Source: Natronorubrum halophilum | GTDB taxonomy: Archaea; Halobacteriota; Halobacteria; Halobacteriales; Natrialbaceae | Length of the DNA stretch: 64,000 bases | Assembly: GCF_003670115.1 (NCBI RefSeq) | Contig: NZ_QQTY01000002.1 | Coordinates: 496,001-560,000, forward strand | Direction: 5' to 3' | Shown: positions 29,782 to 57,823 of the stretch, one piece after another | Layout of the letters: each line of letters begins with the position of its first letter | How positions within the stretch are numbered: the first letter of the stretch is position 1 | Position numbers and translations under genes: made by a program | The notes under the pieces: model-generated | What the model was told of the DNA's origin: nothing | Databases searched by the model: none | The model's input: only the letters and a program-made list of their open reading frames with translations

Positions 29782-30948
29782 TCAGTCGACGAAGTCGATG
29801 TCGTCGCCCTGCGCAGGCGCTTCGGGCCGGACGCCCTCGCCGTCCGGCTGGCCGTAGATCTGTGGCGACTCGACGCCCGTGACGACGATCATCGTTCGCA
29901 TGCTGCCCTCGAGGCTCTCGTCGATCGAGGTCCCCCAGATGATGCGGGCGTCGGGGTCGATCCGATCGTAGATCTCTTCGACGACGCCTTCGGCTTCCTC
30001 GATGGCCATGTCGTTGCCGCCGGTGACGTTGACGAGGGCGGAACTCGCGCCGGAGATATCGACGTCGAGCAGCGGCGAGCGCAGTGCGGTCTTGACCGAG
30101 TCCTGGGCTTTGGCTTCCGAGTCGGACTCGCCGAGGCCGATCATGGCGACGCCGCCGCGTTCCATGACCGTCCGAACGTCGGCGAAGTCCAGGTTGACGA
30201 GGCCGGGTTTCGTGATGAGTTCGGTGATGCCCTTGACCGAGCGCATGAGGACCTCGTCGGAGACCTTGAAGGCTTGTCGCACGGGCAGTTTGCCGACGGA
30301 GTCGAGCAGACGGTCGTTGGGGACGACGATGACGGTATCGGAGACGTCGCGCAGGCGCTCGAGGCCGGCCTCCGCGTTGGTCCGTCGGACCTCACCCTCC
30401 GCGGTGAAGGGCGTCGTGACGATCGAAATCGTCAGCGCACCGGCCTCGCGGGCGGCCTTGGCGACGACCGGCGCGGAGCCGGTTCCGGTGCCGCCGCCCA
30501 GCCCGGCGGTGACGAAGACCATATCGGAGCCGTCGATCGCGTCGTAGATGTCCTGTTGGCTCTCGAGGGCGGCTTCCTCGCCGACTTGCGGGAGCGAGCC
30601 GGCACCGCGGCCGCCGGTCTTCTCCTCGCCCATCAGGATCTTCGTGTCGGCGTCGATCTCGACCAGGTGCTGAACGTCCGTGTTGGCGGCGACTAGCTTC
30701 GCGCCGTGGATGCCTTCCTCGTGCATCCGATTGACGGTGTTACCGCCGGCACCGCCGCAGCCGACGACCGTGATGTCCGTCTGCAGGTCCTGGAGGACGT
30801 CTTCGAGTTCGTCGTCGGTCATCGTTCCCGTTCGGTTCAATGCGTCCCCGGCCGGCGACTGCCCTGTTTGCGACGGGGCGTCTTCGGAGACGTCCGACGG
30901 CTCCCCGTCTTCGGCCTCGTCGATGGCGTCGTCGATAATGGAGTCCAT
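29782..30948 (-). CDS. ftsZ1: Cell division GTPase FtsZ1
   Basis: Tubulin-superfamily GTPase that forms the archaeal division ring. The 388-residue protein starts with an acidic extension, then [19 protein letters not shown], the G-box [12 protein letters not shown] (about 150-160) and the T7 loop NLDFADV (252-258) that completes the neighbour's active site. The N-terminal wording ([14 protein letters not shown]...[18 protein letters not shown]) and [18 protein letters not shown] tail match haloarchaeal FtsZ1 rather than FtsZ2. Haloarchaeal work shows FtsZ1 acts with FtsZ2 in ring assembly. An 18-base palindrome and a TATA element lie upstream. The gene stands alone on this strand, followed by about 350 non-coding bases. 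Confidence 0.97.
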
Positions 30949-50411: not shown

Positions 50412-51719
50412 TCAGTACTCGCTCGGCTCGGTGTCAGAGTCAGCGTCCGAATCGGGTCCTCGATCCGGGTCCGAACTCGAGTCCGCGGCGGGCCGGCGCG
50501 GCGGCTCCCTCTCCGGACCGCCATCGGTGAGTTCGGACGGCAGGTTGGAGTTCGATTTCGGCTCGACGTCCCTTCCGGCACCGTCGGTGATCTCCCCCTC
50601 GTTTCGGCTCCCGCTAAAGTACGACGCGACTCTCGCACCGACGAGGCTCACGACGAGCGCAGTCACGACGAACAGCGCGAGCCGTTCGCCGGCCGTCACT
50701 GCGAAGCTCTCGTTCGATAGCACGCCGAACTCGTAGGCCGGGACCTCGAACGATCCGATCGCATCCTGTCGCTCGAGGAAGTACGCCGAGAAGCCCCGCA
50801 CGACCAGGCCGACGGCGACGACGATAAAGGGCAGGTTGAGGTAGGAACTACGGATTGGGTCGTCGCTGATCGCCTCGTCGAGCAGTCGGCCGGCGCTGGC
50901 CGTGAGCGCGGCCATCGCGAGCCACGGAACGGCGTAGAAGGCGAACTGCATCGCGGGGATCACCACGCCGGGCGAGTCCTCGAGACTCGAAACGCCGAGC
51001 GCACCGGCGAAGAAGCCGACGAGCGTGAGTCCGGCGGCGACGACGTAGGTGACGACCGAGACCTGTCCGGAGTACAGCGATTCGCGCACTTGGTGGGTGG
51101 CTCCGGTTACCAGTTCGTCGACGTTGAATCCCTTGTACAACAGGAAGACACCGATGACGGTCGTAATCGCGGCAGCACCCTCTGCGGGGCTGAAAACGGT
51201 CGCGAGTATCGGAAAGACGAGTAGCGTCAATCCGATGGGGACGAGGATGGTCTGGCGCAGTTCCTCGTCCGCGAGGAACTGCTTGAGCAGATAGTACGTC
51301 GATTCGATGTCGCGGGCCTGCCGGACGACCACGCGGTCGACCGAATCGACCTGCATGCGGCTCTCGACGATCGGGACCAGTCGTTCGTCCTCCGCGCTGT
51401 CGATGACGACGACCGCCGAGTCGGGATCGTACTCGGCCACGAGTTCGTCGAGTTGGGCCGCGACCGCTCGGTCCGCCGAGACCATCGACTCTCGATCCCC
51501 CGAAACGACCGCGACGACGACCTCCTCGGCCTCGTCGCGAAGGTTCTGGGCGACGCGCAGCGTCTCGAGCAGGGAGTTGACTCCCGAATCCTCCGGATCC
51601 GCCAGGCCGACGTCGGTCACGAGCGCGCGGACGGCTTCCCAGCCGACTACGGGCGACCGAAGGCCGGTCTTGCGACCGACATCGTCGGTCCGGTCGAGAC
51701 AGACGACCAGCGTTGTCAC
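50412..51719 (-). CDS. DUF373 family membrane protein
   Basis: A 435-residue archaeal protein: residues about 1-150 soluble, beginning TTLVVCLDRTDDVGRKTGLRSPVVGWEAVRALVTDVGLADPEDSGVNSLLE with a DHHA1/receiver-like alpha/beta appearance, then about seven transmembrane helices (about 160-370), then a 60-residue disordered acidic tail. The family (DUF373) is known across archaea, function unknown. It overlaps no neighbour; the Dph6 gene follows on the same strand with 50 bases between. Possible conductance or sensor function is speculation. Confidence 0.9.
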   Translation of the reverse strand: MTTLVVCLDRTDDVGRKTGLRSPVVGWEAVRALVTDVGLADPEDSGVNSLLETLRVAQNLRDEAEEVVVAVVSGDRESMVSADRAVAAQLDELVAEYDPDSAVVVIDSAEDERLVPIVESRMQVDSVDRVVVRQARDIESTYYLLKQFLADEELRQTILVPIGLTLLVFPILATVFSPAEGAAAITTVIGVFLLYKGFNVDELVTGATHQVRESLYSGQVSVVTYVVAAGLTLVGFFAGALGVSSLEDSPGVVIPAMQFAFYAVPWLAMAALTASAGRLLDEAISDDPIRSSYLNLPFIVVAVGLVVRGFSAYFLERQDAIGSFEVPAYEFGVLSNESFAVTAGERLALFVVTALVVSLVGARVASYFSGSRNEGEITDGAGRDVEPKSNSNLPSELTDGGPEREPPRRPAADSSSDPDRGPDSDADSDTEPSEY

Positions 51720-51807
51720 GGTATCCGTTCCATGCTGTGTGACGATAAAACCACTTACTCGTTCGACGTGTCGACGGCGCGACCTGCGGGCGACGGGTGG
51801 AGACTGC

Positions 51808-52803
51808 TCAGGTCCGCAAGCGGAACTCTCGCTCCTCGGCGATCCCGGCGATGCCGGAGCCGAACGCGTAGGCCACCTGCTGAGCTCCGGTTCCGACGCG
51901 GGCCATCAGCGGCCGATCGGGTTCGAACTCCTCGACGGCGACGTCGTCCCGCCCGAGTCGATCGGCCAGTTCGGTCTCGAGTTCCCGGCGCGTTCCGAGG
52001 TGGTCGACGAGATCCATCTCGTAGGCTTCCTCGCCGAGGTAGATCCGCGCCTCGGTGTCGCGAACGAATTCGCTATCGAGGTCGCGACCGTCGCTGACCC
52101 GCTCGACGAACGTCTCGTAGTAGTCGTCGATCAGGCCCTGGAGATACTCGCGTTCGTCGTCCTCGAGTTCCTTCAACGGCGTGCCGGCGTCCTTGAACTC
52201 CCCGGCAGCGAAGCGCTCGTAGGAGAGTCCGACCTTCTCGGCGAGGTCGTTCGCGTTCACTCGGGAGCCGATGACCCCGATGGAGCCGACGATGGAACCG
52301 TCGCGGGCCCAGAGTTCGTCACAGCCGCTTGCGATCCAGTAGCCGCCGCTGGCACAGACGTCGTTCGTGTAGGCGACCGTCGGCCCGTCGAACCGCTCGG
52401 CCGCGAGCCGAATATCGTCGCTCGGAACGACCTCCCCGCCCGGCGTGTTCAGCTTTACCAGCAGCGCGTCGACGTTGTCGTCTTCGTCGGCGCGATCGAT
52501 CTGCTCGACGATGTCGTCGGCCGGCGTCCCTCGCGGACTCGAGGGAATCCCACCGCCGCCGCCGTCGCGGGTGATCGGCCCCTCGACGGCGACCTCGGCG
52601 ACGTCGTAGGTCGGAAACAGCGAGTCGGCGACGTTTCCCGCCAGTCGAATCCCGACGGCGATCGCGGCGATCGCGACGAGAACGCCGGCCAGATCGGCGA
52701 GCGTCTCCGGATAGACGACGAACAGCGCGACGCCGAGCGCGGCGAACACCACAGCGCCGGTCGCGACGATCAGCAGACGTACGTTTCCATCACTGCTAGC
52801 CAT
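51808..52803 (-). CDS. sppA: Signal peptide peptidase SppA
   Basis: Membrane-bound serine protease that digests signal peptides. Two hydrophobic helices (about 10-30 and 38-55) anchor the 331-residue protein; the catalytic Ser is S152 in VCASGGYWIASG and Lys is K204 in RFAAGEFKDAGTPLKE, with the same 52-residue spacing as in characterised archaeal SppA. The ClpP-like core continues with LVKLNTPGGEVVPSDDI and SIVGSIGVIGSRVN. The ATG at 52803 follows an in-frame GTG at 52812. Same strand as the DUF373 gene. Confidence 0.94.
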   Translation of the reverse strand: MASSDGNVRLLIVATGAVVFAALGVALFVVYPETLADLAGVLVAIAAIAVGIRLAGNVADSLFPTYDVAEVAVEGPITRDGGGGGIPSSPRGTPADDIVEQIDRADEDDNVDALLVKLNTPGGEVVPSDDIRLAAERFDGPTVAYTNDVCASGGYWIASGCDELWARDGSIVGSIGVIGSRVNANDLAEKVGLSYERFAAGEFKDAGTPLKELEDDEREYLQGLIDDYYETFVERVSDGRDLDSEFVRDTEARIYLGEEAYEMDLVDHLGTRRELETELADRLGRDDVAVEEFEPDRPLMARVGTGAQQVAYAFGSGIAGIAEEREFRLRT

Positions 52804-53016
52804 CGTCGACACCTCGTATCATGGCACATCCTGTGGCTGCCGTCGAGTTAAGGGTACGTGTTTGGACATCGCCCCGTCCGTTGAACCAGTCGCTTCCGGC
52901 CACCGTTTGAACGCGCAAGTCCGTCGTCCCGGCCACGCTCGAGCCCCTGTCGCCGCGACCGCTGGCGGCGCTCGAACCGGGAAAAACCGCAAAAAGACAC
53001 AGGTGGACGAACCGAG

Positions 53017-53898
53017 TTAGAGAAGCCCCGTCTTCTGGAGTTTCATCAGGTCCTCGGTATCGAGGGTTTCGCCGTCCTTGAACTTCTGATAGATCTCTTC
53101 GGCCTCTTCTTTGGCCGCTTCCTTTTTCTTGTCGCGCTGGGACTTGCGCTGTTTTTCCTCTTTCTTGTCCAGTTCGCGCAGGCGCTTCTGGACGCGGACG
53201 AAGTCCTCGTGGTGCTGGTCTGCGGCCTCCTGGGCCTCGACGAAGGACTCGTGCATCTCGTCGGCTTCGTCACGGATATCGTCGGCCTCGCGATAGGCCT
53301 CGATCATCTGGTTGTGATGTTCCTGGGCCTTGTCCGCCAGCTCCGTGACCTTCTGGTGGTGCTGGGAGGCTTCCGATCGCACTTCCTCGGCTTCCTCGAC
53401 GAGTTCTTCTAAGTCCTCGTTCTGATCGAGCTTCTGTTTGCGCTCTTCGTACTCCTCACGCTTTCCCTCGATCTTTTCGATGAGTTCCTTCTCGTCCTCG
53501 CTCGAGAGGACTTCCGTCTGCTGTTTGAACTCGAGCTGTTCGATCTCCTCTTTGAGCTCCTCGAGATCCTTCCCCTCGTCGAGCTCCATGTCGGACTTGA
53601 GCTTCTCGACCTTGTCGAAGAGCGTGTTGGCCTCGGCGTTGAGCTCGTTTCGCTTGTCCTTGTGTTCCTGAACCTTCTCGTTGAGCTCGTCGCGTTTCTC
53701 GCGGTGTTCCTGGGCTTCGTCGACCTTCTCGCGCGTCTTCGCGTTCAGGTCGTCCCGGTTGGACGCTCGCTCGGAGGCCATCTGGTTCAGATCGTTTCGC
53801 CGATCTCGGAGCTGGCCAGCCATCTTGATGAGCTGTCCCTTCGATTTGTTTTCGAGGTCGTCTTCCGTCAGTTCGATGTTCTTTGATTCGTCTACCAT
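53017..53898 (-). CDS. Long coiled-coil protein (COG1340-like)
   Basis: A 293-residue protein that is almost entirely heptad-repeat coiled coil, with many Glu/Lys/Arg/Gln (DELNEKVQEHKDKRNELNAEA; EELVEEAEEVRSEASQHHQKVTELADKAQEHHNQMIEAYREADDI), and a short C-terminal segment ending in DLMKLQKTGLL. This matches the archaeal family COG1340, a predicted structural or partner-binding coiled-coil protein of unknown role, sometimes mis-annotated as phosphoserine phosphatase. It stands between sppA and a 315-base gap. Confidence 0.88.
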   Translation of the reverse strand: MVDESKNIELTEDDLENKSKGQLIKMAGQLRDRRNDLNQMASERASNRDDLNAKTREKVDEAQEHREKRDELNEKVQEHKDKRNELNAEANTLFDKVEKLKSDMELDEGKDLEELKEEIEQLEFKQQTEVLSSEDEKELIEKIEGKREEYEERKQKLDQNEDLEELVEEAEEVRSEASQHHQKVTELADKAQEHHNQMIEAYREADDIRDEADEMHESFVEAQEAADQHHEDFVRVQKRLRELDKKEEKQRKSQRDKKKEAAKEEAEEIYQKFKDGETLDTEDLMKLQKTGLL

Positions 53899-54213: not shown

Positions 54214-56085
54214 TTATAAATGGTACTGGTTGGTAACCGCACGATCGTTACCCCCGACTGTCAGTTCGATTCCGGATGCCGTCCGGGGGATTTCGGCCGT
54301 TCCGGCGTCGGCCGTTTCGAGCGGCCCGACGCGCACAACCGTCTCGTCTCCCGCCTCGCCGGCCCGCCAGGAAACGGTCGTCTCTACTTCCTCGTGCGTA
54401 TCGTTACAGAGGGTTATTCCGACGGATCCCGGTTCGGGCGGGCCGTCGAGAATCGCCTGAACCGGTTCGAACGATCGGGCGAGCGCCCGGTACGCTTCCT
54501 TTTCCTCGCCGGTCCGGGTCAGGACACCCGCGCCGCCACCCGGTGTCGCATCGCGAAGCGTCGCCGCCACCAGCACGCCGCTTCTACGGCGGCGGAGCGC
54601 CTCCGCGACCGTCTTCAGCGTCCGCGCCTGGTACGTCTGGGACGCTTCGACGGTGGGATCGGCACCGACCCAGTGCTCGAGCGCCGCCTCGTCGAGTCCG
54701 GGGATATCGGCGGGGTCGACGTCGGCCGCGGTCAGCGATCCCGCGCCGAAGCCGCCGACGAACGGTCCGATCGAACGGTCGCGCTCGAGCAACCACTCGA
54801 CCGCGTCGGCCTCGAGATACTGCCAGCCCGGAAAGATCAACGCGGCGTCGGAATCGGTGCCGGGCGGTCCCGCGCTCGTAACGACGGGACGATCGTCGGG
54901 GAGCACTTCGGCGATCGCTGCCGTGGAGGGACGATCGGCGGTCGTTCGCCGCGCACGGTAGCGGAACCGCAGTTTCGTCAGGAACCCGCCGCCGTAGAGT
55001 CCGTCGAACGGTCGACTCGGGTCGTCGTGGCCGCCGTAGATCGCGAGGCTCGGGTGGTGGCCGTACGTTCGCTCGAGCGCCGCCGCGAGCAATCGGGTGC
55101 GCTCGAGCGAGCGGTCGGCGTTCGGTCCGCCCGTCGGCAGGTCCTGCCAGACCAACACTCCGGCCTCGTCGCAAGCGTCGTAGAACGTCGGCGGGACGGG
55201 CGTGCGAGCGCGAAGCAGCGTCGCGTTCGCGCCAACAGCGCGCTCGACGTCCGTAGCCGGATCTCCGCCGGGCAGCCGCGTGAACCCGCGGGCTCGAACC
55301 TGCGTTCCGTTGACCAGTATACCCTCCCCGTCGCGTTCGATCTCCCGGAAGCCGACCGTCCGCTCGAGCGACTCCTCGCCCAGTTTCGCTCGAACCGCGT
55401 ACCGCTGTTGGGGGCCGTAGCCGCGCGGCCACCACAGGGACGGCTCTCGGATCTCGAGAGTCCGGGACACCGTCACCCGCTCGCCCGCAGCGGCCTGTAC
55501 CGACGCGCGCTGCATGGTCCCACCGCCGCGGAACCCCTCGGGACGCACGGAGAAGGTGATCGCGTCATCAGTCGACTCGCCCGCGTCGACCTCTGCCTCG
55601 ACGTCGATGACGCCGCCGTCTTCGGTGAGTCGTGACCGGGCCTCGAAGCGGCGAAGGAACGTTCGAGGCCGAGACTCGAAACCGACGCCCCACCGGATAG
55701 CCGGCGTCGCGAATTCGTCCGGTAGCTCGTCGCTCCCGTAGATTCCCGTGAGTGGATCGGGTCGCTCGCAGACGACGACGAGTTCGTTCTCGGGTCGGGG
55801 ATCGAACGCGGCGCGGAACGGGAGGACAGTCGAGTCGTGCGCGCCCAGTCGGTCCCCGTTGAGCCATATTTCGGCTCGAGCATAGATCCCGCGAAGTTCG
55901 ACCAACGCCCGTTCGCCGGCGTCACTCCGCGGATCTCCGAACGTCGTCCGGTAGGCGATCGGTCCCGCGGCGTCGCCGAACGCTGCCGGCCGTCCGGGAA
56001 CGGAAACCGGCAACCACTCCTCGACCGTCGGCGGGCCGTCGTCGCCCCGTCGATTGACGACCCCACCGGTCCACTTGGCACCCAT
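54214..56085 (-). CDS. Glycoside hydrolase family 2-fold protein, catalytically degenerate
   Basis: A 623-residue protein with the GH2 layout: N-terminal jelly roll (about 1-150, with AYRTTFGDPRSDAGERALVELRGIYARAEIWLNG), Ig-like domain (about 155-255, LWWPRGYGPQQRYAVRA), and TIM barrel (about 255-480, ARGFTRLPGGDPATDVERAVGANATLLRARTPVPPTFYDACDEAGVLVWQDLP). The acid/base region HPSLAIYGGHDDP has Asp where W-S-G-N-N-E has Glu (residue 355), and the nucleophile region, usually FVSEFGFQS, is FVGGFGAGS (444-450), so the nucleophile Glu is gone. It is probably a sugar-binding pseudoenzyme or scaffold. Same strand as and just downstream of the CetZ gene; no signal peptide. Start ATG 56085 rather than GTG 56097. 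Confidence 0.8.
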   Translation of the reverse strand: MGAKWTGGVVNRRGDDGPPTVEEWLPVSVPGRPAAFGDAAGPIAYRTTFGDPRSDAGERALVELRGIYARAEIWLNGDRLGAHDSTVLPFRAAFDPRPENELVVVCERPDPLTGIYGSDELPDEFATPAIRWGVGFESRPRTFLRRFEARSRLTEDGGVIDVEAEVDAGESTDDAITFSVRPEGFRGGGTMQRASVQAAAGERVTVSRTLEIREPSLWWPRGYGPQQRYAVRAKLGEESLERTVGFREIERDGEGILVNGTQVRARGFTRLPGGDPATDVERAVGANATLLRARTPVPPTFYDACDEAGVLVWQDLPTGGPNADRSLERTRLLAAALERTYGHHPSLAIYGGHDDPSRPFDGLYGGGFLTKLRFRYRARRTTADRPSTAAIAEVLPDDRPVVTSAGPPGTDSDAALIFPGWQYLEADAVEWLLERDRSIGPFVGGFGAGSLTAADVDPADIPGLDEAALEHWVGADPTVEASQTYQARTLKTVAEALRRRRSGVLVAATLRDATPGGGAGVLTRTGEEKEAYRALARSFEPVQAILDGPPEPGSVGITLCNDTHEEVETTVSWRAGEAGDETVVRVGPLETADAGTAEIPRTASGIELTVGGNDRAVTNQYHL

Positions 56086-56139
56086 TGGCACAGTCACGGA
56101 ACCCGAGGGAAAAAGCTGTTCCGACGTCCGACTCGAGAC

Positions 56140-57228
56140 CTAAAACAGGTTCTCGAGGCGGTCGTCGGCGAACTGTTCTGCGGGATCGGTCCGCGCCTCC
56201 TCGCGATCCTGGGCCGTCTTCGCCTCGCGAGCGCGGTCCATGAACTCCCGAACGCGATCCGATCGTTCCGCCCCACCGAGCAGGACGAGCGCACCGAGCC
56301 GATCGGTCTCGAGGGGGAAGTCACCGCCCCGAACCTGCATGCTGCCGGTTTCGTCCTCGAGCCAGCGCCGCGCTCGTTCGACGCCCTTGCGGGGGATCCG
56401 GTCGGATTCGCCGGCGACGACCAGCAGCGCCGCCTCGGCCGCCCTCGTGTCGGGCATGCTCGTCCCGGTTAGCAGCGCCTGTCGCGAGACGCTCATCGCG
56501 GTCTGGATGTTCTCGGCGCTGTCCTCGCTCGCGAGTTCGCTGGCGTAACCGAGGACGGAGACGCCGCCCGCGCGGAGGGTGTTGATGACCTCGCTCGAGT
56601 CGACCACACTTTGCCCAACGCCCTCGACGGCCTCGCCGGAGGCGAAGAGCAACCCGACGCGCTTGGCGATCTTGCCGTTGATCGTGTCGAACGCGCCCTC
56701 GACGCTCTCGCCCTGTTCGTGCCACGCGTCGTTGTCGATGAGCAGCGTCGAGTCCGCCTCGCGGACGAGCGTCTTCAGGGATCGGCCGGCGTTGGCCTGG
56801 TAGAGCGATCCCTCGTTGCGTCCCGGCAACACGCCGAGCGCGTAGACGGGAACGTCGTAAACCTGCTGGAGGTGGTGGACGAGAACCGGTGCACCGCCGC
56901 TTCCCGTCCCGCCGCCGAGGCCGGCGACGACGAAGATCGCCTCGGCGCTCGAGGTGACCCGCCCGTCGAGCGAGCCGAGTACCTGCTGGATGTCCGACTG
57001 CATGATCTCGGTGCCGAGTTCGTTGTCAGCGCCGACGCCGTGCCCGTTGACGCGGTCCGCGCCGATCAACTGGGTGTCGACGAACTCGAGCGATTGGAGG
57101 TCCGCTTCCGCGGAGTTGACGGCCAGCGCGCCCTGAACGGCACCGAAGCCCATATCCGCGTCGAACCGGGCGAGCCGTTCGGTGACGTTTCCGCCGGCCT
57201 GACCAACCCCGATCAGGGCAACTTTCAT
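56140..57228 (-). CDS. CetZ-family tubulin-like GTPase
   Basis: Tubulin-superfamily protein of the archaeal CetZ group (cell shape and motility in haloarchaea). The 362-residue protein starts MKVALIGVGQAGGNVTERLA and has the G-box [20 protein letters not shown] and nucleotide-contacting PGRNEGSLYQANAGRSLKTL. Absence of the FtsZ wording [10 protein letters not shown] and the GQAGG beginning favour CetZ over FtsZ. The C terminus is charged (TAQDREEARTDPAEQFADDRLENLF). The GH2-like gene follows on the same strand, 54 bases downstream, so they may be cotranscribed. Which CetZ subtype is uncertain. Confidence 0.88.
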   Translation of the reverse strand: MKVALIGVGQAGGNVTERLARFDADMGFGAVQGALAVNSAEADLQSLEFVDTQLIGADRVNGHGVGADNELGTEIMQSDIQQVLGSLDGRVTSSAEAIFVVAGLGGGTGSGGAPVLVHHLQQVYDVPVYALGVLPGRNEGSLYQANAGRSLKTLVREADSTLLIDNDAWHEQGESVEGAFDTINGKIAKRVGLLFASGEAVEGVGQSVVDSSEVINTLRAGGVSVLGYASELASEDSAENIQTAMSVSRQALLTGTSMPDTRAAEAALLVVAGESDRIPRKGVERARRWLEDETGSMQVRGGDFPLETDRLGALVLLGGAERSDRVREFMDRAREAKTAQDREEARTDPAEQFADDRLENLF

Positions 57229-57397: not shown

Positions 57398-57823
57398 ATG
57401 TTCTACGAACAGCGGATGACCGTTCCCGACTCGCCCGCTGCTCTCCGTGCGGAGTACGACGAGGACCTCAGGGCGATCGTCGAGCAACGCGGTCCCGACG
57501 CGGTTGCCGACCGGACGGACGTCGACCGCGAGACCGTCGACGCCCTGCTCGAGGGGGGCTCCCCCGACCTCACGCTCGTCGAAGCGGCCCAGATCCAGGC
57601 GCTCGAGGACGGCGAACCCGACCCCGACGAGATGGTGACGATCGCCTGCGAGCACCTGCTCCTGGGCATGTCGACGGCCGTCCTCGACGTCGACGCGATC
57701 GAGAGCGAGGTGGCCCTCGAGATGGACGCAAAGGAGATCCAACAGAAGATCGAACGACGCGCGCCGATGTCGCTCGAGGAGTTCGTCCACGTGCAGTACG
57801 TGATCGCCGACGGCGCTCCCTGA
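57398..57823 (+). CDS. DUF5791 family protein
   Basis: A 141-residue helical acidic protein: MFYEQRMTVPDSPAALRAEYDEDLRAIVEQRGPDAVADRTDVDRETVDALLEGGSPDLTLVEAAQIQALEDG reads like a helix-turn-helix-like N-terminal bundle, then VLDVDAIESEVALEMDAKEIQQKIERRAPMSLEEFVHVQYVIA. Known to me as haloarchaeal DUF5791; function unknown. It is divergent from CetZ across a 169-base region. ATG 57398. Confidence 0.85.
   Translation: MFYEQRMTVPDSPAALRAEYDEDLRAIVEQRGPDAVADRTDVDRETVDALLEGGSPDLTLVEAAQIQALEDGEPDPDEMVTIACEHLLLGMSTAVLDVDAIESEVALEMDAKEIQQKIERRAPMSLEEFVHVQYVIADGAP

Follow-up and report, generated by a model that had tools for sequence, protein, structure and literature searches.

The window, meaning the whole 64,000-nucleotide stretch of Natronorubrum halophilum DNA that was analysed, carries a minus-strand gene for P0001, a protein resembling the GH2 beta-mannosidases, together with a CetZ gene upstream on the same strand and a gene for a coiled-coil DUF7121 protein downstream (Table 1). 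The open reading frames, their coordinates and strand, and the 54-nt gap (positions 56086-56139) that separates P0001 from the CetZ gene agree with the original prediction for this locus. The DUF7121, SppA-type peptidase and DUF373 genes recur as a block (window 50412-53898, minus strand), which elsewhere is often followed by Diphthami_syn_2, a diphthamide synthase-like gene.

Table 1. Genes, sequence motifs and promoter-like element at the P0001 locus, in window coordinates.
Feature	Position	Strand	Basis
DUF373 membrane protein, downstream block	50412..51719	-	locus comparison
SppA-type S49 peptidase, downstream block	51808..52812	-	locus comparison
DUF7121 (PF23435) coiled-coil protein, 293 aa; constant downstream neighbour	53017..53898	-	Pfam, locus comparison
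P0001, GH2 beta-mannosidase-like putative pseudo-glycosidase, 623 aa	54214..56085	-	sequence, Pfam, PDB search, AlphaFold2
FVGGFG, residues 442-447; Gly445 at nucleophile Glu position, end of barrel strand 7 in model	54745..54762	-	alignment and model
GGHDD, residues 351-355; Asp355 at acid/base Glu position, Asp354 replacing the clan GH-A Asn	55021..55035	-	alignment
BRE/TATA promoter-like element GGAACAGCTTTTT	56110..56122	-	like element in like place in nearly all loci
CetZ2-type tubulin homologue, 362 aa; lineage-specific upstream neighbour	56140..57228	-	Pfam, PDB search
DUF5791 gene, divergent from CetZ; start codon uncertain	57425..57823	+	Pfam, locus comparison

The identity of the CetZ gene is clear, its product matching the Pfam models for the GTPase domain (PF00091, 104.5 bits) and the CetZ C-terminal domain (PF21011, 203 bits). 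Judged from pairwise scores only, the protein is of the CetZ2 type, being nearer to PDB 4b45 (471 bits) than to 4b46 (321 bits), which we take to be the CetZ2 and CetZ1 of Haloferax volcanii respectively. The window also holds a second tubulin-superfamily gene, FtsZ-like (29782-30948, minus strand), with 30% identity to the N-terminal part of the CetZ; at least two further CetZ paralogues are present in the genome besides FtsZ-like genes (contig C2, 129393-130541 and 1172208-1173323, loci L002-L004; 47-56% identical).

The only Pfam match of P0001 above the cut-off is PF00703, the Ig-like GH2 domain (31.6 bits); the N-terminal GH2 domain is below threshold and the TIM-barrel model PF02836 gave no match in this search. 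A sequence search of the PDB returned GH2 beta-mannosidases and their relatives, with a best E value of 1.4e-12. An initial AlphaFold2 run with 13 orthologues produced a poor barrel (pLDDT 60.7, pTM 0.37), which was mostly mended by adding distant GH2 enzymes to the input (24 sequences; pTM 0.86, mean pLDDT 79.8). The resulting model starts with an N-terminal beta-sandwich, passes through an Ig-like domain into a partial barrel and ends in a single further Ig-like domain, and the domain order of the GH2 fold superfamily (beta-sandwich, Ig-like, (beta/alpha)8 barrel) is present. Seven of the eight barrel strands are assigned, strand 6 is unresolved, and residues 354-384 and 405-426 of the barrel are modelled with low confidence. 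The full three-domain GH2 architecture previously proposed is recovered in the model, with a partial barrel, but not by Pfam. Foldseek placed GH2 beta-mannosidases as the top PDB matches to the model (E 1e-34, TMq 0.73). Hydropathy gives no sign of a signal peptide or a membrane span (maximum over 19 residues 0.98; N-terminus 0.54), in keeping with the cytosolic location suggested earlier.

The two catalytic motifs of GH2 enzymes are altered in the translated sequence, as the original prediction had it. On alignment with distant GH2 enzymes the GHDD of P0001 pairs with the GNNE that carries the acid/base residue, and its VGGFG pairs with the VSEFG that carries the nucleophile. In the model, position 355 lies just after barrel strand 4 (residues 347-353) and position 445 lies within strand 7 (residues 442-446); in a clan GH-A enzyme the acid/base and the nucleophile would be expected at these two sites. 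The substitutions extend well beyond this pair: where the distant enzymes, from Thermofilum and bacteria, carry HPSIVLWCGNNE, RFVSEFG, RVWGGG, GANWIP and YGWDWG, P0001 has HPSLAIYGGHDD, PFVGGFG, LRARTPV, GFTRLP and YGSDELP. The GWDW, GANWIP, RVWGGG, GNNE and SEFG motifs of the active relatives are all replaced in the alignment, and the contacts of the beta-mannosidase -1 subsite are absent, with T/S-D in place of W-D and R-x-R/H-A/G-H in place of RVWGGG. In active relatives the GWDW loop helps to build the sugar site, and its absence, with that of the other -1-subsite motifs, contradicts the earlier description of the sugar-binding modules as intact.

Among 104 orthologues the acid/base column holds Asp in 52, Glu in 27 and other residues (R, G, Q, A, H, W and others) in 25, while the nucleophile column holds Glu in 36, Gly in 33, Ala in 18, a gap in five and other residues in 12. 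Glu occupies both columns in three proteins. The clan GH-A signature of Asn-Glu together with a nucleophile Glu occurs in none; the Asn-Glu dipeptide is found in five, and all five have Ala at the nucleophile. Approximate counts on a FastTree topology, built with the motif columns removed and containing some weak forks, give at least 11 switches between Glu and non-Glu at the acid/base position and at least eight at the nucleophile. Within the haloarchaeal family f1 the nucleophile has been lost in nearly all members except those of genera g19 and g22, and in the Halococcus orthologues (L104-L107, L129 and L130) the barrel segment that bears it is deleted and the flanking domains are kept. The reading of P0001 as a pseudo-glycosidase is thus borne out and can be extended to the whole family; we infer, with some force, that the protein has no enzyme activity.

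Of the 391 Halobacteria genomes sampled, 134 carry a full-length member of the family, as counted by hand from matches with an E value of 3e-74 or better; the next matches, at about 1e-20, are other GH2 proteins. A phylum sample of 295 genomes contained no orthologue outside the Halobacteria at E 1e-30, and a scan of named genomes beyond the haloarchaea gave ordinary GH2-type matches only (23-33% identity), so that the family has so far been found in Halobacteria only. Identity across haloarchaeal families is 38-64%, no stop-interrupted frames occur among the listed family matches, and dN/dS in 22 close orthologue pairs ranges from 0.13 to 0.37. Such purifying selection indicates that the protein appears to be retained without catalysis, and the dN/dS values and open frames together are grounds for rejecting a pseudogene.

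The association of the GH2-like gene with CetZ is of narrow distribution. CetZ is the next gene upstream at 25 of the 104 loci, all of them in f1, where the spacing is often about 50-150 nt on the same strand, and it stands at about 3 kb in two more; synteny is thus kept in part of one family and nowhere else, which falls short of the loss in all relatives that the original prediction named as its refutation. In the f1 genera g19 and g22 the upstream gene is DUF371, and as CetZ adjacency is confined to f1 the juxtaposition looks derived within that family, a probable chance of gene order in one lineage. A CetZ2-type gene (threshold E 1e-115) is missing from 18 of the 134 genomes that carry the GH2-like gene, including all nine Halococcus carriers (genus g46, assigned through L129 and L130, which match L107 and L104), and 203 genomes have CetZ2 and no GH2-like gene. 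Co-occurrence of the two genes is not significant (Fisher p = 0.07, from a table counted by hand and uncorrected for phylogeny). The 54-nt gap itself contains a promoter-like element, with CTTTTT 25-30 nt ahead of the P0001 ATG, as for a leaderless transcript. A BRE/TATA-like element stands at a constant distance from the ATG in nearly all loci, whether or not CetZ lies upstream, and a 16-nt string, GGAACAGCTTTTTCCC, is common to the window and to L113 and L114, two loci in which CetZ is not upstream. Since the element is conserved in loci without CetZ as well, the gap is more readily read as a putative promoter than as a spacer within an operon, which weakens an operon reading based on its length. 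A literature search combining CetZ with 'glycoside hydrolase' returned what are apparently fungal and plant papers only.

The downstream junction is, by contrast with the upstream one, almost invariant. DUF7121, identified by a PF23435 match of 489 bits against a cut-off of 29, is the next gene downstream, in the same orientation, at 102 of the 104 loci, at a distance of 208-992 nt (median 276 nt); the two exceptions, L090 and L091, both belong to genus g54. The upstream gene is DUF371 in 43 loci (farther away in four more), CetZ as above, Diphthami_syn_2 in ten, DUF5791 in seven and another gene in 13. With at least five arrangements on one side and a near-constant neighbour on the other, gene order makes DUF7121 a more likely candidate partner than CetZ. 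Where a sampled genome lacks the GH2-like gene, the direct neighbour of DUF7121 is usually DUF371 in Haloferax-type families and CetZ2 in f1, and the GH2-like gene therefore behaves as a unit that is present or absent in a fixed slot. DUF7121 was found in all 391 Halobacteria genomes, with matches also in the Haloferax volcanii and Methanosarcina acetivorans controls; its copies in the fetched loci are 76-96% identical to that of the window. It has no relative in the PDB by sequence, and the sources found assign it no function, a search for literature on DUF7121 having returned nothing. The H. volcanii protein HVO_0880, described in PMC10294847 as a coiled-coil protein with heavy lysine acetylation, may be its counterpart in that species.

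A protein with this history might still be an enzyme with a non-canonical site, relying either on Asp354 and Asp355 or on substrate-assisted catalysis; its target might then be a glycan or a nucleotide sugar in the cytoplasm. Of the 104 members, 55 retain the D-[DE]-P motif, 82 retain Asp354 and 32 combine Asp355 with Glu445, and in this last group, about a third of the family, weak residual activity could persist. Asp354, however, is often retained where residue 355 has become R, Q, H, W or V, as in several proteins of the Natrinema type that have Arg, Gln or Trp there, and for this reason it looks structural; with the other -1-subsite motifs all lost, and the nucleophile or its entire segment gone from most of f1 and from Halococcus, we consider a non-canonical enzyme improbable. 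The opposite extreme, a decaying GH2 remnant with no present function, would accommodate the free drift of the catalytic residues and the absence of the gene from about two thirds of genomes, apparently through loss in parts of f1. Full-length frames in so many genomes, the constraint on sequence and the conserved promoter-like element argue against decay, and we give it very little weight.

The idea that P0001 assists the CetZ2 cytoskeleton, either by tying cell shape to a carbohydrate or as a scaffold, draws on the close same-strand spacing in f1 and on reports in PMC9856176 that connect CetZ2 neighbourhoods with the cell envelope and with a sugar epimerase. Brown and Duggin (2023; PMC9856176) list arCOG04674, arCOG03095 and arCOG01566 in that neighbourhood, which, matched by description only, resemble the DUF5791-like, sugar epimerase and DHH genes of the window, and the portions of the paper covered would explain the presence of these genes around the window CetZ. 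In those portions (sections 15, 16 and 19) the pseudo-glycosidase and DUF7121 are unnamed, and neither 'hydrolase' nor 'coiled' occurs in the main text. Adjacency never occurs outside f1, some carriers have no CetZ2-type gene, CetZ2 is common without the GH2-like gene, and in f1 genomes that lack this gene CetZ2 simply adjoins DUF7121. A CetZ partnership as a general rule is rejected on these distributions, and coupling to CetZ, raised as a possibility in the original prediction, is very unlikely; the GH2-like gene also has its own promoter-like element. The DUF7121 junction could also have arisen when the GH2-like gene was acquired once, into a block of stable order, in line with separate promoters and the universality of DUF7121. 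The intergenic distance implies that the GH2-like gene and DUF7121 are probably transcribed separately, and DUF7121, being universal where the pseudo-glycosidase occurs in about a third of genomes, does not need the latter.

Taken together, these results lead us to favour, by a modest degree, a cytoplasmic GH2 pseudo-glycosidase that has lost catalysis and is kept for binding, with DUF7121 a likelier candidate partner than CetZ. On this view the protein descends from a beta-mannosidase, has given up both catalysis and the canonical -1 subsite for sugar binding, and is kept for a non-enzymatic role in which its beta-sandwich domains most likely bind a protein or some other ligand. P0001 may accordingly serve in binding or as a scaffold, and, if gene order reflects a partner, it might contact the coiled-coil DUF7121 protein encoded just downstream. 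It is a rather unlikely extension of this proposal that the two form a complex acting as an adaptor on an uncharacterised structural or membrane-associated system universal to haloarchaea. Haloarchaeal members of the family risk annotation as glycoside hydrolases, and the evidence favours treating the whole family as probably non-catalytic. Attention shifts from CetZ to DUF7121, of which the pseudo-glycosidase is a testable candidate partner.

The closest known systems are the GH2 beta-mannosidases, among which BtMan2A (PDB ID: 2je8), the Xanthomonas exo-beta-mannanase (6byg) and the Dictyoglomus enzyme (5n6u) are the top sequence and fold matches of P0001. The shared elements are the N-terminal beta-sandwich, the Ig-like domain, the (beta/alpha)8-type barrel and the mannosidase-type Ig domain. 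In contrast to these active relatives P0001 is about 200 residues shorter (623 as against about 800-900) and is without the catalytic Glu residues, the GWDW loop, the GANWIP and RVWGGG motifs and the last Ig domain. Retention of an enzyme fold after loss of catalysis is known from Klotho (GH1-like) and the chitinase-like lectins (GH18), which serve as binding proteins; P0001 differs from both in belonging to another GH family and in being, as predicted here, a cytoplasmic archaeal derivative of GH2.
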